Shown here: one piece after another, positions 5,350 through 57,491 of the stretch | Numbering within the stretch: position 1 is the stretch's first letter | How the letters are laid out: every line of letters starts with the position of its first letter | NCBI RefSeq assembly: GCF_015645465.1 | Contig: NZ_JADOEL010000003.1 | Span: 248,001 to 312,000, forward strand | Length of the DNA stretch: 64,000 nucleotides | Reading direction: 5' to 3' | Source: Herminiimonas contaminans | Lineage (GTDB): Bacteria; Pseudomonadota; Gammaproteobacteria; Burkholderiales; Burkholderiaceae_D | The notes under the pieces: generated by a model | Database searches by the model: none | What the model saw: only the letters and a program-made list of their open reading frames with translations | What the model was told of the DNA's origin: nothing | Program-made: the position numbers and the translations under genes

Positions 5350-5859
5350 TTACATGCGCCCGAAGCCAAACATGCCATCCCGCTCAAAACGCATATCCTG
5401 CGCGTTTTGCATCATCTTGACTACGCCGTTATTGTCGAAATGCACATGCATCACGGAGTTCCAGACGCCAGCTTCCTTGTATGGATAGCTCCAGACTTCA
5501 AGTTGCAACCTGGAGAGGTAGGAAGTTTCCGAGGGGTGGCCTATGGTACGCAGCACATCATTCTTGATCGCGATGCCGGGTTTGATGGTGGCGAATTTTT
5601 CTACTGTTAACACTTGTTCATAGGAAACCAGCCTGCCGCTGCGGTCAAAGCGCGCCATATTGGTGGCCTGGCCCCACGGGTTGCGCGTATACTCCAGCAA
5701 ATACCCGTTTTTATCCTCGATCCGGGAGGTGGGTTGTCCCAGCTTGGAGATGACTGAAGCCTCGGGTTCGCCGATGTTGATAGGTGGTGGCATGAAGCTG
5801 GCGCAAGCGCCCAGCATCAGGAGTAATCCCCCCAAGATTGCTTTTTGACCATATTTCAT
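5350..5859 (-). CDS. Outer-membrane lipoprotein, BamE/SmpA-like fold
   Basis: The 169-aa product has a lipoprotein signal with lipobox LGAC (Cys at 19). The mature part contains two copies of a pattern seen in the SmpA/OmlA (BamE-like) fold: SVISKLGQPTSRIEDKNGYLLEYTR and, later, KNDVLRTIGHPSETSYLSRLQLEVWSY in pieces, each a short helix followed by G-x-P and beta strands. It is not BamE itself, which is shorter with a single motif, so it is best described as a BamE-like lipoprotein of unknown partner. It converges with oxlT on a shared terminator. Confidence 0.75.
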   Translation of the reverse strand: MKYGQKAILGGLLLMLGACASFMPPPINIGEPEASVISKLGQPTSRIEDKNGYLLEYTRNPWGQATNMARFDRSGRLVSYEQVLTVEKFATIKPGIAIKNDVLRTIGHPSETSYLSRLQLEVWSYPYKEAGVWNSVMHVHFDNNGVVKMMQNAQDMRFERDGMFGFGRM

Positions 5860-5919: not shown

Positions 5920-6010
5920 GCGGGGCTGGTTAATTCGACCAGTTTTTTTAATCGTTGTTCACGGTGTGTGGGGTTCAGACTCTATGCATCGCATGTGAAA
6001 GGTAGTTTTT

Positions 6011-6481: not shown

Positions 6482-8617
6482 GTGTTTAATAAAGTCACTA
6501 AAACCTTCCAGTATGGCCAACATCAGGTCACGCTTGAAACCGGCGAAATCGCCCGTCAAGCATCTGGCGCCGTACTCGTCTCGATTGAAGACACCGTTGT
6601 ACTGGCTACTGTAGTGGCAAAAAAAGATGCCAAGCCAGGTCAGGACTTCTTCCCGTTGACCGTTGACTACGTAGAAAAAGCCTACGCTGCTGGCCGTATC
6701 CCGGGCGGTTTCTTCAAGCGTGAAGGCCGTCCTTCCGAAAAAGAAACACTGACATCGCGCCTGATCGATCGTCCGATTCGTCCGCTGTTCCCGGAAGGTT
6801 ATTTGAACGAAGTTCAGATCATCATTCACGTACTGTCGGTCAATCCTGAGATTGATCCGGACATCGCTTCCATGATCGGCGCTTCGGCTGCATTGTGCGT
6901 AGCTGGTATCCCGTTTGCAGGTCCTCTGGGTGCGGCTCGCGTTGGTTACATCGATGGTCAATACATCCTGAATCCGACTGCAACACAACTGAAAACATCG
7001 CAGATGGATCTGGTTGTTGCCGGCACTGAAACAGCAGTGTTGATGGTTGAGTCCGAAGCGCAGCAATTGTCGGAAGAAGTCATGTTGGGCGCGGTTGTTT
7101 ATGGCCACGATCAAATGAAAGCAGTCATCGACGCGATTCACGATTTGGTGCGTGATGGCGGCAAGCCAGAAGTGCAATGGGCGCCTCCGGCAAAGAACGA
7201 AGCGCTGATCGCACGCGTAACTCATTTCGCAGAAGCGAAACTGCGCGCTGCATACCAAACCAAAGACAAGCAAGCACGTACCACCAAGCTGAAAGATGCA
7301 TTTGCTGAAGTGAACAACGAGTTGGCGGCAGAAGCTGCTTCCATCGGCGCTGCGGCACCTGACGCAGCTGAAGTCGGCAACATTCTGTTTGATCTGGAAG
7401 CAAAAATTGTACGTTCGCAGATCCTCGAAGGCGAACCACGCATCGACGGTCGTGATACCCGTACCGTACGTCCTATCAGCATCCGTACTGGCGTATTGCC
7501 ACGTACCCACGGTTCGGCATTGTTCACCCGCGGTGAAACACAGGCTCTGGTTATCGCAACCCTGGGTACCGCACGTGACGAGCAAAAGATCGATGCATTG
7601 ATGGGTGAGTACTCGGATCGCTTCATGCTGCACTACAACATGCCTCCGTTCGCAACTGGCGAAACCGGCCGTGTCGGTACACCTAAGCGCCGTGAAATCG
7701 GCCATGGTCGTCTGGCCAAGCGTGCACTGGTTGCTGCCTTGCCAGCGCCGGAAGAGTTTAGCTACTCGGTACGTCTGGTATCGGAAATCACCGAATCCAA
7801 CGGTTCGTCGTCGATGGCTTCGGTCTGCGGCGGCTGCCTGGCGCTGATAGACGCTGGCGTGCCTATGCAATCGCACGTTGCCGGTATCGCTATGGGCCTG
7901 ATCAAGGAAGGCAGCAAATTTGCTGTTCTGTCCGACATCCTGGGTGATGAAGATCACCTCGGAGATATGGACTTCAAAGTGGCTGGTACCGCTAACGGCA
8001 TCACCGCTTTGCAAATGGATATCAAGATCCAGGGCATCACCAAGGAAATCATGCAAGTCGCTTTGGCGCAAGCTAAAGAAGGCCGCGTGCACATCCTCGG
8101 CGAAATGGAAAAAGCGGTACCTAGCGGTGTTGCTGGCGAGTTGTCCGATTTCGCGCCACGCCTGATCACCATCAAGATCAATCCAGAAAAAATCCGTGAC
8201 GTCATCGGCAAGGGCGGTGCAGTTATTCGTGCATTGACCGAAGAAACCGGTACCCAAATCGATATCAGCGATGAAGGCGTGGTCACCATTGCATCGGTAG
8301 ATGCAGCTGCTGGTCAGGAAGCCAAACGTCGTATCGAAGAGCTGACCGCTTCGGTTGAAGTCGGCAAGATCTACGAAGGTACAGTTCTGAAATTGCTGGA
8401 TTTCGGTGCCATCGTGCAAGTAATCCCAGGTAAAGATGGTCTGTTGCACATCAGCCAGATTGCCAACGAGCGCGTCAATGCAGTTGCTGATTACTTGCAA
8501 GAAGGTCAGCAAGTACGCGTTAAAGTTCTGGAAACAGACGACCGTGGTCGCCTGAAGCTGTCGATGAAAGCAGCGGTTGCGGAAGAGAATCCGGAACCAG
8601 CGGCAACACAAGAGTAA
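6482..8617 (+). CDS. pnp: Polyribonucleotide nucleotidyltransferase (PNPase)
   Basis: A 711-aa phosphorolytic 3'-5' exoribonuclease, part of the mRNA degradosome. Two RNase PH-like domains flank an alpha-helical linker. [12 protein letters not shown] is in the first core and the second core carries [10 protein letters not shown] and [21 protein letters not shown] domain with the [10 protein letters not shown] loop follows at about 560-620, and an S1 domain ([15 protein letters not shown]) at about 627-695. The frame is open from 6419, but I chose the GTG at 6482 because AAAGGAAC lies just before it and the protein then begins MFNKVTKTF like its homologues. Confidence 0.97.
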
Positions 8618-8760: not shown

Positions 8761-9519
8761 ATGCGCCGCAAACTCGTCGCTGGCAATTGGAAAATGAATG
8801 GCAGCCTGGCTGCCAATGCGCTATTGCTGACGGAGATTGAAAGCGGATTAAAAAGCAATATGAGCAGCGCAACTTGTGATGTTGCTGTCTGTGTCCCAGC
8901 TCCTTATTTTGCGCAGTGCCAAGGCTTGTTAAATGGCTCTGCGATCACCCTCGGTGCGCAGGATGTCTCCGCCCACGAAGCAGGTGCATATACCGGTGAA
9001 GTATCGACCAGCATGCTGCAGGAATTCGAGTGCCGTTATGTAATCGTTGGCCACTCGGAACGTCGTGCCTATTTCGCCGAATCAAATGAATTGATCGCAC
9101 AAAAAACTGTGCGTGCACTGCAAGCAGGTTTGACTCCTATCGTCTGCGTTGGTGAAACGCTGGCGCAACGCGAAGCAGGGCAGACCGATAGCGTGGTTGC
9201 AGAACAACTGAATGTCGTGTTGGCAGCGATTGCTGTAAGCGATCTGGCAAAGATTGTTGTAGCATACGAGCCGGTTTGGGCAATAGGTACCGGTAAGACA
9301 GCAACGCCAGCGATGGCGCAGGAAGTGCATGCGATGTTGCGCAAGCAGCTGCAGGTCAAGAATGCCGAAGCCGCAGCACAAGTCAGAATTCTGTACGGCG
9401 GCAGCATGAAGCCGGACAACGCGAAAGAATTGCTTGCCATGTCAGATATCGATGGCGGTTTGATCGGTGGGGCAGCATTGAAGTCGGTAGACTTTCTCGC
9501 CATCATCCAAGCGGCTTGA
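8761..9519 (+). CDS. tpiA: Triosephosphate isomerase
   Basis: This 252-aa glycolytic enzyme interconverts dihydroxyacetone phosphate and glyceraldehyde 3-phosphate. It has the TIM-barrel catalytic residues: Asn/Lys in GNWKMN, His in IVGHSERR, and Glu in [11 protein letters not shown], the last with the flexible loop 6. The phosphate-binding GGS ([10 protein letters not shown]) and GGLIGGAAL segments are also present. The ribosome site is weak. secG follows after 44 nt, a pairing common in beta-proteobacteria. Confidence 0.97.
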
Positions 9520-44400: not shown

Positions 44401-44478
44401 ACTGTCTAATATACAGTGGTTTATAAACGATGCTGCAACCCGCATGGCAGCGTGTTGCATATTTCGATATTAGACAGT
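44401..44478. repeat. 12-bp perfect inverted repeat beside attL
   Basis: ACTGTCTAATAT (44401-44412) and ATATTAGACAGT (44467-44478) flank 54 bp that contain a second inverted pair, TGCAAC/GTTGCA. The right copy covers the integrase stop codon. They may be integrase arm sites or a hairpin ending the integrase transcript. Confidence 0.7.
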
Positions 44479-45636
44479 TTTTTTGCTATCCAGCCAGGGT
44501 AATGGCAGGTCAATTGCTGACCTTTCTGGTACCGATTCTTTGATGTAAATCTCGGAAGTTTTGCCGGACGTGTGAGCAAGCCTGGTTTGAATGGCTTTCA
44601 TATTTTCGCCAGCTTTGGCTGCATCGGTTGCACCCAATGCGCGCAGGTCGCGGAACTGGATCCGTTCGTCTGGAGATGAATCCTTGTCGATTCCAATGCG
44701 ATCGCGTGCCCGGTCCCACATCGAGAACAAGCCGCTTTTCGTGTATGGCTTGCCGTCACGCGTAGGGAACAGATAAGGCGTAATCAGGGGTTGCCCCTTG
44801 ACCTTGTATTCCTTTTTAATTTCCCGCGCTCTATCAAGCACCTCGGCGATCTGGGGCGTAATGAAAATATCCACCGTCTTACCGCTGGACTTCATCGTCT
44901 TGCTTGGCTTGAAGCGGATATAGTCGCCGTCAATCTGTTGTTCTTTCAGCGTCCGGACATCGATCGCACGTTGCCACAGCAGGTAAGCAATATCGACCAG
45001 GCAGCCAAACATAGGGCCGCTTGCAATGGCAAAGCTTTTGCCGGTGTTCTTGTTTGGCATACTCATCATGCCGGCGGCTCTAATACGCTTCACCTGGTCA
45101 TGAGTGGGCAGCACTTCGCGTCTGGTGGTCTGATAGCCGGAAAGGTCGATCTGATCTATCGGGTTGTCCTGACGCAGACCAAGCTCGGAAATGATGAACT
45201 TGAATAATCGGCGTGCCAGTGCGGTGTACTTTTGAGCGGTGTTCTGCTTGTCCGCGAAATTGTCGCGCAGGAATTCAGCCCATGACTTAGTTGTCACCTG
45301 GGCCGCGCTGAAATCCTCGAATGCCGTGGCGATTGTGTCTAGGTAGTTACGATATGTCGCTTGTGTCTCTGTGCTGTAGCGCCCGAGTTTGATCAGTTTG
45401 AACTGGTTGCACACGTCCGGCATGCTACCCGCTATTGATTTCTTGTCTTGCAGAAGCTGGCCCAGCACCTGCAGCATTGCCGGTTCACCGTCGGCAACTG
45501 ACCCGAGCCTGATCCACTTGCGCGGGGTGCCGTCTTTGGGGTCGGGAATCGGTTCAGGCGAGACGAAGTGATACGCGCCGTGCTTAATGTACACGCGGCG
45601 CGGCAATCCTTTTCCGGTCTTTCTGGCTCGGTTCAT
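44470..45636 (-). CDS. int: Tyrosine-type phage integrase
   Basis: The 388-aa recombinase has a SAM-like core-binding domain (about 85-150) and a C-terminal catalytic domain. Catalytic candidates are Arg223 (WQRAIDV), Lys246 (KPSKT), Arg332 in FRDLRALG, His355 (LAHTS) and nucleophile Tyr364 (SEIYIK). The usual His of box II is Arg here (RDLR rather than HDLR), as in many phage integrases. The start overlaps the DUF4224 gene stop (ATGA). It lies next to the tRNA-Pro remnant and should catalyse integration there. Confidence 0.93.
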   Translation of the reverse strand: MNRARKTGKGLPRRVYIKHGAYHFVSPEPIPDPKDGTPRKWIRLGSVADGEPAMLQVLGQLLQDKKSIAGSMPDVCNQFKLIKLGRYSTETQATYRNYLDTIATAFEDFSAAQVTTKSWAEFLRDNFADKQNTAQKYTALARRLFKFIISELGLRQDNPIDQIDLSGYQTTRREVLPTHDQVKRIRAAGMMSMPNKNTGKSFAIASGPMFGCLVDIAYLLWQRAIDVRTLKEQQIDGDYIRFKPSKTMKSSGKTVDIFITPQIAEVLDRAREIKKEYKVKGQPLITPYLFPTRDGKPYTKSGLFSMWDRARDRIGIDKDSSPDERIQFRDLRALGATDAAKAGENMKAIQTRLAHTSGKTSEIYIKESVPERSAIDLPLPWLDSKKTV

Positions 45637-47666: not shown

Positions 47667-48581
47667 TCATACGACCCTCGCAATCTCTTGAATGATGTCC
47701 CGAGCCACCAGCGGCACGACTGCGTTGCCGAGCATGTGCATGGCTGTGCGCTTGTTTTCTGGCAGCTTGTAGTCGGTTGGGAAGCCCATTGCCGCACGGG
47801 CTTCCTGCACTGACAGCATGCGCATACGGTCACCATCGACTATTGCGTGTCGGTCGCGGGTAGTGATTGTCCCGATAGGGCGGTGGAGCGATCTGCCGCC
47901 TTTTTCATTCCCGTAGTAGCTGCTGATGAATCTGTCACCGTGTACACGACGACCGGCGGCAATGCGTGAAAGTGTGGCCGTAGCGCGCCCAGGCTTTTCG
48001 ATTGGCTGCCAATTACCAGCATTGAAATCCACGAAGCTGCTTGCCGGAACGTGTTCCCGCTTTTGCAAATTCAAGACGAGCGGGTGCTTAGCCCTAACCA
48101 TCACAATAAACAGCCGTTCCCTATGCTGTGGCGCGCCTTGGTCGGCCGCATCGACAATGGTAGGGGTGAGGCAGTAGCCCATTGATTCCATTGCCTGGCG
48201 CCACGCGGGAAATAGCGTCCAGCGCATGAACTCTGGCACGTTCTCAACCACAGACAAGTACGGACGATGAAATTCCGCCGACGAAACCACCGACCAAGCT
48301 GTAGACCGGCTTGCATCGTGCTGCGGGTTGCCGTCTTCTTTGCCACGCGCCCGGCTATGTCCCTGGCAGCACGGCGAGGCAAGCATAATGTCGTGCGCCG
48401 GTACTTGCTCCCATCGGGCTTGATGCAAGTCCTGGCAAACGTGCTGCGCGCCCGGATGGTTTAAAGCGTGGGTATTGACCGCATCCTGCCAGTGGTTTGC
48501 AGCCCATACGACTTTGCATCCGGCCATTGTCGCGCCGGTGCTGAAACCGCCTGCGCCTGCGAATAAGTCAATGGCATTCAT
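47667..48581 (-). CDS. Phage C5-cytosine DNA methyltransferase
   Basis: The 304-aa methyltransferase has motif I DLFAGAGGFSTG, motif IV ASPCCQGHS (catalytic Cys 72), motif VI ENV (113-115), motif VIII QHRERL (152-157), motif IX RPIGTITT and motif X GNAVVPLVA. The usual PPCQ is PCCQ here. No restriction gene is adjacent, so it is an orphan enzyme, probably protecting phage DNA. The longer frame from 48707 is rejected; the ATG at 48581 has GGGAGG upstream. The target sequence is unknown. Confidence 0.9.
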   Translation of the reverse strand: MNAIDLFAGAGGFSTGATMAGCKVVWAANHWQDAVNTHALNHPGAQHVCQDLHQARWEQVPAHDIMLASPCCQGHSRARGKEDGNPQHDASRSTAWSVVSSAEFHRPYLSVVENVPEFMRWTLFPAWRQAMESMGYCLTPTIVDAADQGAPQHRERLFIVMVRAKHPLVLNLQKREHVPASSFVDFNAGNWQPIEKPGRATATLSRIAAGRRVHGDRFISSYYGNEKGGRSLHRPIGTITTRDRHAIVDGDRMRMLSVQEARAAMGFPTDYKLPENKRTAMHMLGNAVVPLVARDIIQEIARVV

Positions 48582-48613
48582 GCTACGATCCCTCCCAAAA
48601 TAGGGAGAGAAGA

Positions 48614-49231
48614 ATGAAGAAGTCGTTTTACGAAACTGCGTTCGGTATTGGCATAGCAGCAGCCCTTTTTGTTTCCGGTGTCGTCTGCGCATACATATTC
48701 CGCGCACCAGTTCCTACCGACTGGTGGTCGCCTGTTGCTGCGCTTTCCACCACTGGCGCAGTTTTTGTGGCGTTGTGGACTACGAATCGACAAAGTGCCG
48801 ACACGATCAAAAGAGAAGTAGATGCCGACGCGGCAATCTTGCTGGGCTTTCAGCAACTGTCGAAGGAACTGACTAGGGCCTGCTTTTTGGCTGGCTATCA
48901 GACCGATTCGGAAGAGAACGAGACTCTCTATGCAGACATTTCTGCAGAATTCGCTGAGATTGCAAAAATGCTGTCTGATTTGCCTATGGAGATACTGGCA
49001 AAACACGGGCAGATTCCCCGATGCATGCACTTGCGTCGGATCGCAAATGAGAGTTGCCTCTTGTGGAAAGGCGTGACAAAACGTGATGGTTCGTTCTATA
49101 TGAATAATCGAACAAAGCTCACTGATCTCGAGCGCCGGGCGCGCAAAGAGAATATTGCGATTGCTGAGTATCTTGAAAAACTGTCCCCGACTCTTTATCA
49201 GCGGCATAAAGATTTGATTGAGAAAATGTAG
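48614..49231 (+). CDS. Phage membrane protein with helical cytoplasmic tail
   Basis: The 205-aa product has two N-terminal membrane helices (about 8-30 and 40-58) and then about 145 residues of charged, helical sequence. GGGAGAG lies before the ATG. It runs rightward, opposite to the arm, and its start is only 32 bp from the methyltransferase start. No family is recognised. Two helices plus a soluble tail is a layout seen in phage exclusion and defence proteins, but there is no motif to support that. Confidence 0.65.
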   Translation: MKKSFYETAFGIGIAAALFVSGVVCAYIFRAPVPTDWWSPVAALSTTGAVFVALWTTNRQSADTIKREVDADAAILLGFQQLSKELTRACFLAGYQTDSEENETLYADISAEFAEIAKMLSDLPMEILAKHGQIPRCMHLRRIANESCLLWKGVTKRDGSFYMNNRTKLTDLERRARKENIAIAEYLEKLSPTLYQRHKDLIEKM

Positions 49232-54514: not shown

Positions 54515-54530
54515 GGTTGCCCTTATTTAT

Positions 54531-54589
54531 TAGCAATGCTATGAACATAATTATTAGCTACGCTTTTTAATAAGTCAAGAGCAATGCTA
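54531..54589. promoter_or_regulatory. Leftward phage operator cluster (OL-like)
   Basis: Three dyads at exact 24-bp spacing: TAGCAATGCTA (54531-54541), a weaker TAGCTACGCTT (54555-54565) and GAGCAATGCTA (54579-54589). They surround the leftward promoter. The same dyad occurs at 56471-56506 beside the repressor gene. Confidence 0.75.
54550..54578 (-). promoter_or_regulatory. Leftward early promoter (PL-like)
   Basis: On the leftward strand TTGACT (54578-54573), a 17-bp spacer and AATAAT (54555-54550) make a strong sigma-70 match. It is overlapped by the operator dyads. Confidence 0.75.
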
Positions 54590-54617
54590 ATAAAAAATTC
54601 TAAATAATTTCAAAGGG

Positions 54618-54643
54618 CGAAAAAAAACCCGCCGAAGCGGGTT
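54618..54643 (-). terminator. Terminator of the repressor-lipoprotein operon
   Basis: Read leftward: AACCCGC-TTCG-GCGGGTT followed by a run of T, with a stable TTCG tetraloop. It separates the lysogenic operon from the leftward promoter. Confidence 0.9.
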
Positions 54644-54660
54644 GTTTCTGCAAAGAGCGG

Positions 54661-54849
54661 CTATTTCACGTTCGGCCAGCGCTTATAGGAGAATATCCAA
54701 AACGCGATGATATTCACAAGAGGGACAAGCAATAAAAAAGACCACCATCCAGAATGCCCAGTGCGCGTCAAAATGCGCCAGGTGGGTACGCCGAAAATCA
54801 CAAAATAGATGATTAATACTAGCCAATGCCAAATTGAAAAAGACCCCAT
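54661..54849 (-). CDS. Small phage membrane protein in the repressor operon
   Basis: The 62-aa product has two membrane helices (about 8-26 and 38-55) and a charged end (YKRWPNVK). The ATG at 54849 has GGGGAG 8 nt upstream, so the longer 54891 start is rejected. It lies between the PDZ lipoprotein gene and the operon terminator, and is probably expressed in the lysogen. Confidence 0.7.
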   Translation of the reverse strand: MGSFSIWHWLVLIIYFVIFGVPTWRILTRTGHSGWWSFLLLVPLVNIIAFWIFSYKRWPNVK

Positions 54850-54927
54850 ATTTAACTCTCCCCAAAAAAGATTGATTGTTCTGTGGATCAAGAAGCGGCG
54901 ATGGCACCAATTGCAGACAAGTGGTTT

Positions 54928-55704
54928 TTACTTGAGTGCTACGTTTTTTGTAATGATTTTGCCTTCGCGAAGTAATTCCATTGATATCTTTTCGCCGGTC
55001 TGGGCCCGTGCTATATCCATGAATTGTTGTGCTGAATAGATCGGCGATTGGTTTATTGCGGTGAGAATATCGCCTTTGAAAATGTCGCTATAGAAAGCCG
55101 GTGAATCTTTGACTACCGCCGAAATCATCACGCCTTTATTTGTACCGATTTCACGTCGCATTTCACCTTTGATCTCGTCTACATATATTCCGAGCCGTGG
55201 TGGCTTCGTCTTTGAATAATAAACTGCCAAATGATCGCTACGATCTACCGAGTAAGGGACATATGTCGTCTGGGTACCGTAAGTCGTGGTCTGCGCAACT
55301 CCGCTAAAAGGGCGGCCATAAGAGTTTCCGTTTACATATGTGTTTGATGTCGACGTGGTCGGCGTAACCATGGGCATCGCGCCAGATACAGTATTTGTGT
55401 AGCGCGAATAGAGAAGCACCACCGCAGCATTCACCTTCTTAGCTTGCACTACCGCACCGTTTTCATTCACTTTTCCAGCGTTGAAACTGGATTCGCCAAT
55501 CTTGTCGAAGCCGTTTTCTCTCATCCGGACAAGATCTTCCAAAGGAACGCCTCCTCTTTGGACGACTGGGTCTCCGTTGTACGGCACAAATCGAGGATTA
55601 TTGACAACGCCGACTCCGCCAGTGCTGTCTCTATAGAATTCTGAATAAGGTGCCGCGCAACCAGTAAGAGCCAACGTGAATAACGCGGAAACAAGAATTT
55701 TCAA
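54928..55704 (-). CDS. Phage-borne lipoprotein with C-terminal PDZ domain
   Basis: The 258-aa product has a lipoprotein signal with lipobox LTGC (Cys 16). A variable middle rich in Thr, Ser, Asn and Tyr follows, then a C-terminal PDZ-like domain (KDSPAFYSDIFKGDILTAIN, then EKISMELLREGK). I chose the TTG at 55704 because GGAGGA is well spaced before it and the signal then starts MKILVSALF; the 55737 ATG has no site and overlaps the repressor. It follows the repressor directly and is likely lysogenic-conversion cargo in the envelope. Confidence 0.75.
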   Translation of the reverse strand: MKILVSALFTLALTGCAAPYSEFYRDSTGGVGVVNNPRFVPYNGDPVVQRGGVPLEDLVRMRENGFDKIGESSFNAGKVNENGAVVQAKKVNAAVVLLYSRYTNTVSGAMPMVTPTTSTSNTYVNGNSYGRPFSGVAQTTTYGTQTTYVPYSVDRSDHLAVYYSKTKPPRLGIYVDEIKGEMRREIGTNKGVMISAVVKDSPAFYSDIFKGDILTAINQSPIYSAQQFMDIARAQTGEKISMELLREGKIITKNVALK

Positions 55705-55705
55705 T

Positions 55706-56425
55706 TTACTTCCTCCGGTATTTTTTTCGGTGTTCAACCATCACCCCAATGATGTATAGCGGCTGTGTGTCACTACGTAAAGTTGGGTAATCCTCGTTAA
55801 GCGGAGCCAGTTCAAATATTTCATTGCCAGCAGCATCTATTCCTCGCGGACGGTACTTTTTAAATGTCGCTTCTTGTTCACCATTCTTTGCGGCCACAAA
55901 ATCACCTGGCTGAGGACGCAAATCCGGCTCAATGATCACACGATCGCCGGGGCGGAAATCGGGCAGCATTGAATCGCCGTTGATTTCAAGAGCAAAAGCC
56001 CATTTCGATAAATCGTCGTCAGAGTAAATGATGTCGGTGCCTGCGCCTGGTGGATATGGATCTGAGATCTCTTTTAATGCTCCGGCCTGGATAGCCGAAA
56101 TAACCGGAATTGCTTTGAGTCCTATCGGCGCCGGTTTCACATTCGGCTCATACGACATCGCACTATCAATTTTCTCGGTCAACCTTGGGCTTATGGTTTT
56201 CGGATCGGCTTGAATGACGCGACAGACTGCGAGAAGGGCATCAAGATTTAGCGGTATTACAGCCCTCAAATACTGGCCAACTGCGCCTTGAGTACCTAAC
56301 CCTGCTTCAGCAGCAAGCCAAGTTTGATTTGCGCCTTTGTTTTCACCCTTGAAGGCAAGCCAAGCTGCGCTTAAACGCTCAGCCTCTGCTTTTTCTTCCC
56401 TGCTTAATTGTCGTCTGGTAGCCAT
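55706..56425 (-). CDS. CI-type phage repressor (HTH + S24 peptidase)
   Basis: The 239-aa repressor has an N-terminal helix-turn-helix region (about 30-65; TWLAAEAGLGTQGAVGQYLR) and a LexA/CI-like self-cleaving C-terminus. The cleavage site is Ala114-Gly115 (AIQAGALKE), with Ser152 (NGDSMLPDF) and Lys189 (EATFKKY) as the catalytic pair. It should hold lysogeny and be inactivated by RecA during DNA damage. It diverges from the Cro-like gene across about 97 bp containing operator dyads. Confidence 0.92.
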   Translation of the reverse strand: MATRRQLSREEKAEAERLSAAWLAFKGENKGANQTWLAAEAGLGTQGAVGQYLRAVIPLNLDALLAVCRVIQADPKTISPRLTEKIDSAMSYEPNVKPAPIGLKAIPVISAIQAGALKEISDPYPPGAGTDIIYSDDDLSKWAFALEINGDSMLPDFRPGDRVIIEPDLRPQPGDFVAAKNGEQEATFKKYRPRGIDAAGNEIFELAPLNEDYPTLRSDTQPLYIIGVMVEHRKKYRRK

Positions 56426-56465
56426 ACCGAATTCTATTAGCTTGCCTATTTTATGTTGAAACTAC

Positions 56466-56493
56466 TTGAAAAGCACTGCTTCTAATGTAGAAT
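56466..56493 (+). promoter_or_regulatory. Rightward early promoter (PR-like)
   Basis: TTGAAA (56466-56471), a 16-bp spacer and TAGAAT (56488-56493) lie 30 nt before the Cro-like start. One operator dyad overlaps the -35 end, the other the start point. Confidence 0.7.
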
Positions 56494-56506
56494 AAGAGCA
56501 TTGCTA
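56471..56506. promoter_or_regulatory. Rightward phage operator cluster (OR-like)
   Basis: AAGCACTGCTT (56471-56481) and GAGCATTGCTA (56496-56506) are 25 bp apart and match the dyads of the leftward cluster. A third, poorer match (TAGCTTGCCTA) is at 56438-56448. Confidence 0.75.
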
Positions 56507-56522
56507 ATTAAAAAGGTGTCCC

Positions 56523-56762: not shown

Positions 56763-57086
56763 TTATTCTGGCTTTAGTCGGCTCATCAGATCGCGCCAAG
56801 CGTGGTGCGCAACTCCATCCGGTGTCTGGTGGCCCTTTAAGTGTCCTTTCAGCTCTGCGCAGTGATCAACCAGCGCAGCAGTTGCGAGATCACTCCTATC
56901 CGAACCTAGCATCTGCGCTTGAGCGGCGGATAGCTGCAAATCAAAGTGGGCTTCAAAAGCTTCCGGATCAGGGTGCGTCCGAATTAGCGCCGACAGTGCG
57001 CAATAGTGAGCTTCCATGAGACCGAAGAGAACATCAATTTGCCATTCGACCGGCGGTTTGGTTGGTTTTGGTTTTTCATTTTCCAT
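56763..57086 (-). CDS. Leftward small gene embedded in the rightward early operon
   Basis: The 107-aa product (MENEKPKPTKPPVEWQIDVL...) has protein-like composition, an Ala/Leu-rich helical middle (LQLSAAQAQMLGSDRS) and AAAGGA 10 nt before the ATG. It faces the Cro-like gene. The opposite rightward frame (56747-57019) reads as its shadow. Unrecognised. Confidence 0.6.
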   Translation of the reverse strand: MENEKPKPTKPPVEWQIDVLFGLMEAHYCALSALIRTHPDPEAFEAHFDLQLSAAQAQMLGSDRSDLATAALVDHCAELKGHLKGHQTPDGVAHHAWRDLMSRLKPE

Positions 57087-57176
57087 GCGCATTCCTTTCT
57101 TTTCTACAGTTGATAGGGGTCAGATTCTCGATTGTGGCATGACTGCGAATGCGCACCAATTTTCAGAGGTACTGCC

Positions 57177-57491
57177 GTGAGCACAGAAACAGTTTCGCCC
57201 GAACAGATCGCAAGCACACGCAAGATCGCTGCATCTATTGAAAGCGACATATTGCGTCGGCTTGCAGAGGTAACGCAGGACCGTGCAGCGGCTTTCATGG
57301 ACGTTTCACCCAGCACGGTGAGTCGCATGCGTGAACGCATCAGCGAGATCGCTTTGTTGATGGCTGCGATTGGTTGCCAGACTACCGGCGCGGATTCGAT
57401 GGTGGTGAGTCAGAACGAACTCGCCGCGTTGAAGCTCCTCGGCTACAAGTATCTGCAGACGCAGATCGAACTCGACCGGCTGCGGGGGTAG
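57177..57491 (+). CDS. CII-like phage activator
   Basis: The 104-aa product resembles lambda CII: an N-terminal helix (KIAASIESDILRRLAEVTQD) and a helix-turn-helix (RAAAFMDVSPSTVSRMRERI). A short helical C-terminus may form the tetramer contact. The GTG at 57177 has GAGGT upstream; the longer frame from 57132 is rejected. Expected to activate repressor and integrase promoters early in infection. Confidence 0.8.
   Translation: MSTETVSPEQIASTRKIAASIESDILRRLAEVTQDRAAAFMDVSPSTVSRMRERISEIALLMAAIGCQTTGADSMVVSQNELAALKLLGYKYLQTQIELDRLRG

Follow-up and report, generated by a model that had tools for sequence, protein, structure and literature searches.

Two clusters of a 15-bp palindrome as probable OL and OR of a lambda-type immunity switch in a Herminiimonas contaminans prophage

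Which proteins do two clusters of short palindromes in a prophage of Herminiimonas contaminans serve, and do the clusters form part of an immunity switch of the lambda kind? They lie about 1.9 kb apart in a stretch of 64,000 nucleotides (contig NZ_JADOEL010000003.1, positions 248,001 to 312,000; hereafter the window), the right one between divergent genes for a CI-type repressor and a Cro-like protein, the left one on the far side of cI. A preliminary description of this DNA had likened them to the left and right operators (OL and OR) of lambda. We conclude that both clusters are very probably the operators, OL and OR, of an immunity switch in a lambdoid prophage, and we predict that the CI homologue and the Cro-like protein bind them. 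Coordinates are those of the window and are collected in Table 1; relatives are cited by our locus numbers (L040 and so on).

Each cluster contains two exact copies of AGCANTGCT, the cores of OL3 and OL1 on the left and of OR2 and OR1 on the right, and there is no other copy in the window; the weaker site of the left cluster, OL2, reads AGCTACGCT. Centre-to-centre spacings are 24 and 24 bp on the left and 25 bp on the right, and the places, spacings and separation of the preliminary description were all reproduced from the sequence. Taken alone, four copies in the window against 1.59 expected are weak evidence, because at least four were reached in 9 of 100 shuffles, and it is the clustering that constitutes the signal. 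In pattern searches across the 4.04 Mb and 56 contigs of the genome, single AGCANTGCT sites numbered 109 against 59 for the reversed pattern (1.8-fold), and counts of single dyads were therefore rejected as proof. Two sites 10-40 bp apart were found at only two places, which are the two clusters, and nowhere with the control. Thus, where the preliminary description had expected equally good dyads elsewhere to speak against operators, single ones are indeed common genome-wide, yet close pairs are restricted to the two clusters.

The sites are placed on promoter-like sequences. Between the divergent cI and cro genes the palindromes overlap matches to a rightward promoter (PR) and to a promoter for cI (PRM), and the second cluster sits on a match to a leftward promoter (PL) upstream of the recombination genes. 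The expectation of a leftward promoter under the left sites and a rightward one under the right sites was thereby borne out at the level of sequence matches. RecT and YqaJ/RecE-type exonuclease genes lie to the left of PL, and we infer that PL would drive them as an operon together with a leftward open reading frame (ORF) of 132 amino acids. The right cluster had been described as two sites; both stand, but a weak third, OR3, had been overlooked. It lies 33 bp from the 56472 site and adjoins the -10 element of the candidate PRM. This offset recurs: among 29 regions (the window, L040 and 27 viral loci), AGY-N3-RCT with 5 or 6 of 6 letters was found 33 bp to the cI side of OR2 in 24, while other offsets of 20-45 bp gave mostly 0 and at most 5. 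In three of the five misfits (L212, L214 and L220) a third site seems to lie at 31-32 bp; for the other two (L226 and L228) the chosen anchor is probably OR3 itself. The OR2-OR1 spacing is 25 bp in 13 of these regions and 33-36 bp in 16.

The preliminary description had given the dyad a length of 11 bp. Its core holds, but the conserved unit comprises 15 bp, A-N2-AGCA-N-TGCT-N2-T, with an A at -7 and a T at +7 that had escaped notice. Among 140 distinct sites upstream of CI that match at least 7 of 8 letters, A occupies -7, a position unused in the selection, in 237 of 280 half-sites. It is kept in 64 of 70 half-sites of close and 121 of 158 of distant relatives after removal of sites beside GAAA, and is thus not merely promoter sequence. 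In lambda, too, the half-site carries A at positions -7 and -4, the former being read by two glutamines.

Strong evidence comes from relatives that were picked by protein alone. For an operator-blind sample, viral sequences were scanned with an alignment of the CI N-terminal domain, the best 80 of 83 relatives were taken, and 67 non-redundant loci were scored over 220 bp upstream of CI; as the recognition helix formed part of the search patterns, most of the sample has a helix of that type. AGCA-N-TGCT ranked first of 3,328 dyads and was exact in 42 of the 67 loci (0-1 for 11 permuted half-sites), and at least two sites at 7 of 8 letters were present in 51 (0-4 for permuted half-sites). In 29 close loci (L201-L230 with the duplicate L225 dropped), the dyad occurred upstream of CI in 25 and as a pair downstream in 28, the best other half-site of 256 reaching 5 and 7, respectively; AGCANTGCTNTTGA was found downstream of cI in 26, and TTGAAAAGCnnnGCT...TAnAAT, the PR motif with OR2, upstream in 24. 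A third left site like OL3 is also present in L040, L201, L211, L222 and L227. That the dyads, the promoter-like sequences and the arrangement in two clusters all recur in these loci strongly supports the lambda-like OL/OR reading. The reverse search, in which viral sequences were scanned for dyad pairs spaced 24 or 25 bp, gave an operator-chosen set of at least 120 stretches; among the matches listed, 69 of 120 include a CI- or Cro-like ORF at some point of the stretch, versus 0 of 25 for a control dyad; in the same set, again among the matches listed, both outer letters were found in 130 of 154 sites in CI/Cro loci versus 15 of 110 in others. In L064, L088 and L101 a AGCANTGCT pair lies on each side of a CI-like ORF, the pairs being 0.9-1.0 kb apart; the G+C content of these loci is 38-40% and 62%, so the dyad class spans very different base compositions.

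Which part of the repressor do the dyads go with? A repressor match was found in 15 of 100 genomes searched (own genome included), and a dyad pair spaced 24 or 25 bp in 6 of 294 genomes of the family (own included; reversed control 1). L040, from another genus of the same family, encodes a CI whose N-terminal domain is 65% identical and whose C-terminal domain is weakly similar (E 0.009), and it repeats both clusters, with OL at 5683/5730 plus a weak middle site and OR at 7988/8022. L041, with an N-terminal domain 30% identical, has three sites between CI and Cro (7318/7342/7367) and a second cluster (10343/10368) ahead of RecT/exonuclease-like genes. By comparison, 15 loci that share only the C-terminal domain and carry another DNA-binding domain (L025-L039, of which L025/L032 and L027/L039 look like the same contigs) show no exact pair of dyads over the 360 bp examined about the assumed start of CI; L037 has one distant exact site, and L036 and L038 have one 7-of-8 site each. 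The C-terminal-domain relatives were accordingly rejected as a source of the operators. As judged from these sequences, the dyads follow the DNA-binding domain of the repressor and not its C-terminal domain.

The repressor itself carries a Peptidase_S24 domain (Pfam) and matches a transcriptional-repressor PHROG, and a profile of CI and 26 relatives matches lambda repressor (3bdn) across both domains with an E value of 1.5e-47. CI is thus a lambda-repressor homologue, in which a lambda-type helix-turn-helix N-terminal domain is joined to an S24 C-terminal domain. In its AlphaFold model (mean predicted local distance difference test, pLDDT, 82.7; predicted template modelling score, pTM, 0.52), the N-terminal domain can be superposed on 1lmb, lambda repressor in complex with its operator, at 1.3 A across 83 columns (template modelling score, TM, 0.88 by target). 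The full-length model superposes poorly on 3bdn (TM 0.40), so that its domain arrangement is uncertain. Five N-terminal domains all have Gln34, Gln46 and Gln51, and Gln46 opens helix 3 in the model, but the profile alignment shifts the helix start by one place, which leaves the match to the lambda glutamines uncertain. The self-cleavage residues Ala114, Gly115, Ser152 and Lys189 are invariant in 27 sequences. In three relatives (L216:4980-5438, L219:5001-5447 and L226:4995-5417), CI ORFs of 141-153 amino acids with the same DNA-binding domain and the same operators alongside have no Pfam S24 match, possibly owing to frameshifts, and both clusters are kept; these are possibly prophages induced without self-cleavage.

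Is only the core of the operator bound to one repressor type, with its surroundings shared more widely? L042 and L043, N-terminal relatives that lack an AGCA pair, have dyads with other inner bases instead, and the AGTC-N-GACT of L231, L232 and L043 keeps the outer frame while the inner bases are changed. The frame A-N2-AG-N5-CT-N2-T was found within 200 bp upstream of CI in 76 of 80 loci (near-duplicates included) and at least twice in 64, compared with 26 and 4 for the best other of 64 frames. When viral sequences were searched for three frame sites at 25-bp steps, the inner bases and the protein being left unspecified, 21 stretches emerged, several of them near-identical or from contigs already in the sample; a CI-like match lay within 1.2 kb in 17 (three of them weak, E 5e-4) and farther off in the locus in three (L305, L306, L308), with none in one (L303). 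When loci were pooled, some of them chosen by dyad or frame, 106 of 115 showed one frame site or more, and in the window, where 18 sites fit the frame, pairs at 24, 25, 33 or 34 bp are confined to OL and OR. The inner bases are CA here and TC, CG/TG and others in other groups. These data are compatible with a proposal that we regard as evenly balanced, namely that in a large branch of the lambda-CI superfamily the frame is fixed and only the inner bases (-2, -1, 0) vary between immunity groups, CI and a Cro of another helix-turn-helix group reading the frame through a shared Q-x-x-V-x-Q helix. If true, immunity groups would be readable from genome sequence. A tie between an inner base and a CI residue is not claimed; Gly44 for position -2 was a weak top match (8 T loci of related lineages in a partly dyad- or frame-chosen set).

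In the switch that we propose, CI and the Cro-like protein would both bind the 15-bp palindromes. OL1-3 would cover PL, the leftward early promoter of the recombination genes, and OR1, OR2 and the degenerate OR3 would cover PR, serving cro and cII, as well as PRM. In the lysogen, CI is predicted to fill OL1/OL2 and OR1/OR2 and thereby shut PL and PR, while at OR3, beside the PRM -10 element, Cro or an excess of CI would turn cI off. Given the Ala-Gly site and the Ser-Lys pair, CI may undergo RecA-stimulated self-cleavage, with induction by DNA damage.

A further question is whether CI, as in lambda, also uses the two clusters to loop the intervening DNA. Their separation would suit a loop, and among the lambda repressor C-terminal structures matched by the S24 domain of CI is the octamer 1kca. 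However, separate repression of PL and PR suffices to explain the layout, and because the three relatives without an S24 match keep both clusters, the layout by itself is no evidence of looping, which we consider possible but somewhat doubtful. Less plausible, and in our view unlikely, is that only one of CI and Cro reads the dyads while the other has sites of its own. CI and Cro do match different groups of helix-turn-helix structures, and for the PaaR2 and YdaS proteins of CP-933P, whose footprints overlap, the accessible part of the published account leaves the precise sequences open (PMC8630535). Yet the recognition helices, TQGAVGQYLRA in CI and SQGLVSQWIRG in Cro, share the signature Q-[GSA]-x-[VI]-x-Q-[YW], and a Cro ORF with this signature is found in 25 of 30 close relatives (in the other five our simple ORF picker gave another frame or nothing). 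Moreover, among exact dyads upstream of CI there is no second 4-mer class of similar weight. Most likely, as their near-identical recognition helices suggest, CI and Cro both read the dyads.

A host regulator could also be imagined to bind the dyads, the prophage using a host signal to control PL and PR. The excess of single AGCANTGCT sites over the reversed control would fit such a protein, but pairs of dyads are confined to the prophage, in viral contigs the dyads go with the N-terminal domain of the phage CI, and the 15 CIs with another DNA-binding domain have no exact pair next to them, so that this explanation is very improbable. Although some pair matches elsewhere resemble short tandem repeats (e.g. 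L052, L060, L069, L071), chance or coding repeats can be dismissed as practically negligible in view of the restriction of close pairs to the two clusters in the genome, the operator-blind enrichment in 67 loci, the CI/Cro ORFs in stretches with pairs against none for the control dyad (among the matches listed), the recurrence in 29 close loci and the unselected outer A and T.

Several observations weigh against the assignment of the clusters as OL and OR of a CI/Cro switch. The promoter matches in the region (5 versus 2.9 expected) are near chance and hence weak on their own, and OR3 of the window has a mismatched half-site. Exact 15-mers occur 9 times in the genome, 6 of them outside the prophage, with 5 for the reversed control. 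In the operator-blind sample 25 of 67 loci have no exact AGCA dyad in the 220 bp scored, the frame is missing from 4 of the 80 loci (L255, L263, L275 and L277) in the 200 bp examined, and the lack of an AGCA pair in L042 and L043 belongs here as well. In L034, which shares only the C-terminal domain, two sites at 7 of 8 letters are separated by 23 bp. Finally, 51 of 120 pair-selected stretches have no CI or Cro match among the matches listed.

The neighbourhood is that of a lambdoid early region. A Cro profile (A3) matches the Cro/YdaS-type structures 8co2 (E 4e-10) and 8c7k (5e-10) and the Cro proteins 3bd1 (1e-7), the Xfaso 1 Cro, and 2pij (5e-4); by these profile matches the Cro of the window is of the YdaS/Xfaso type. 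Two cargo-like genes (54661-55737) occupy the position of lambda rex between cI and PL, and the distance from cI to OL ranges from 0.8 to 3.3 kb across the relatives measured, as if this slot took different cargo. An ORF of 109 amino acids (56763-57092, minus strand) between cro and the CII-like gene has no Pfam or PHROG match at E 0.001. Reading ORFs by eye, we noted in the left arm of the prophage one resembling a DNA cytosine methyltransferase (47667-48707), and an integrase-like ORF (44470-45636, minus strand) just after IHF- and MerR-like genes, which likely marks the left end of the prophage.

Table 1. Features of the putative immunity region, in window coordinates; promoters are candidates and operators putative, both assigned from sequence
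Feature	Positions	Strand	Remarks
OL3 operator	54529..54543	none	ATTAGCAATGCTATG; core 54532-54540; 5/6 frame letters
PL promoter	54550..54578	-	TTGACT-17-AATAAT; 10/12 consensus letters; conserved with OL in relatives
OL2 operator	54553..54567	none	ATTAGCTACGCTTTT; weak core, full outer frame; overlaps PL -10
OL1 operator	54577..54591	none	AAGAGCAATGCTAAT; core 54580-54588; overlaps edge of PL -35
Terminator-like hairpin	54626..54643	-	after cI-side genes, just ahead of OL/PL; 3 such found, 2.9 expected
76-amino-acid protein	54661..54891	-	match to DUF5684 below threshold; at the lambda rex position, flanked by cI and PL
269-amino-acid PDZ-domain protein	54928..55737	-	lipoprotein-like N-terminus read by eye; also between cI and PL
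CI repressor, 239 amino acids	55706..56425	-	lambda-type DNA-binding domain and S24 domain
PRM promoter	56431..56459	-	TCAACA-17-TAGAAT; 9/12, weak; predicted start near cI ATG
OR3 operator	56436..56450	none	ATTAGCTTGCCTATT; degenerate core, full outer frame
PR promoter	56466..56493	+	TTGAAA-16-TAGAAT; 10/12 consensus letters
OR2 operator	56469..56483	none	AAAAGCACTGCTTCT; core 56472-56480; overlaps PR -35
OR1 operator	56494..56508	none	AAGAGCATTGCTAAT; core 56497-56505; just past PR -10
Cro-like protein, 75 amino acids	56523..56750	+	recognition helix given in the text
CII-like activator	57180..57491	+	Pfam and PHROG matches

With a 15-bp consensus that accompanies a single CI DNA-binding domain across many phages, OL and OR could be located from sequence alone, immunity groups proposed, and mutual repression among prophages predicted. 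Since AGCANTGCT dyads recur beside related switch genes in other phages, they can be used to recognise switches of this type. A constant frame with a variable core would, in addition, be a natural test set for how helix-turn-helix specificity changes while CI and Cro stay matched.

Among the open-literature papers listed, we found no description of the AGCANTGCT dyad as an operator, most subscription papers and the 2005 half-site catalogue being outside our scope; its letters in open papers, in the portions examined, were primers. Hall, LeFevre and Cordes (2005, J Mol Biol 350:667) are said to have compared Cro recognition helices with OR half-sites, a comparison of the same type as ours. In the stretches examined, no exact dyad pair was found in Pseudomonas phage D3, one Mannheimia phage or seven named phages (L169-L175); L169 has one exact site downstream of cI and L167 two isolated ones. 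Phage D3 (AF165214) resembles the window in its CI/Cro/CII order and in three annotated putative operators at 24-bp steps; in contrast, its 14-bp operators have sequences such as ATGAGTATTCCCAT, and no exact AGCANTGCT occurs in the 26 kb of D3 examined, so the operators of the window are not of the D3 type. Pseudomonas phage phita81A (PQ738200; L168) has a CI with a related recognition helix, AGCANTGCT at 5928 and 5963, a 7-of-8 site at 5987 and further sites at 8790/8816 downstream of cI; no operators are annotated in the 12.8-kb stretch examined.

The OL/OR architecture as such is already known from lambda, CP-933P and Rac. In the cryptic prophage CP-933P of E. coli O157:H7, which like the window pairs a CI-like repressor with a YdaS-type Cro, the published account reports PaaR2 and YdaS footprints between both genes and reporter repression at a three-operator PL; its 18-bp repeats (consensus GTTTAGTAA) and four intergenic palindromes differ from ours (PMC8630535). 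Rac likewise has palindromic repeats, three in number, between its repressor and ydaS, with repressor binding demonstrated by electrophoretic mobility shift assay and by chromatin immunoprecipitation with quantitative PCR, but the repeat is GCCTAA/TTAGGC and RacR is, according to that study, 15% identical to lambda CI (PMC5700373). The window departs from lambda in its YdaS/Xfaso-type Cro, in its core AGCA-N-TGCT, which is not that of lambda, and in the geometry of OR. The OR3-OR2 spacing is 33 bp here and about 23 bp in lambda, and the distance from OR2 to the predicted start of cI is about 51 bp, as opposed to about 42 bp in lambda, which makes activation of PRM by the lambda contact doubtful. 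In other respects it is like lambda: the CI homologue has both domains, OL precedes the recombination genes and OR separates cI from cro, and each cluster has three sites, the strong ones here at 24-25-bp steps.

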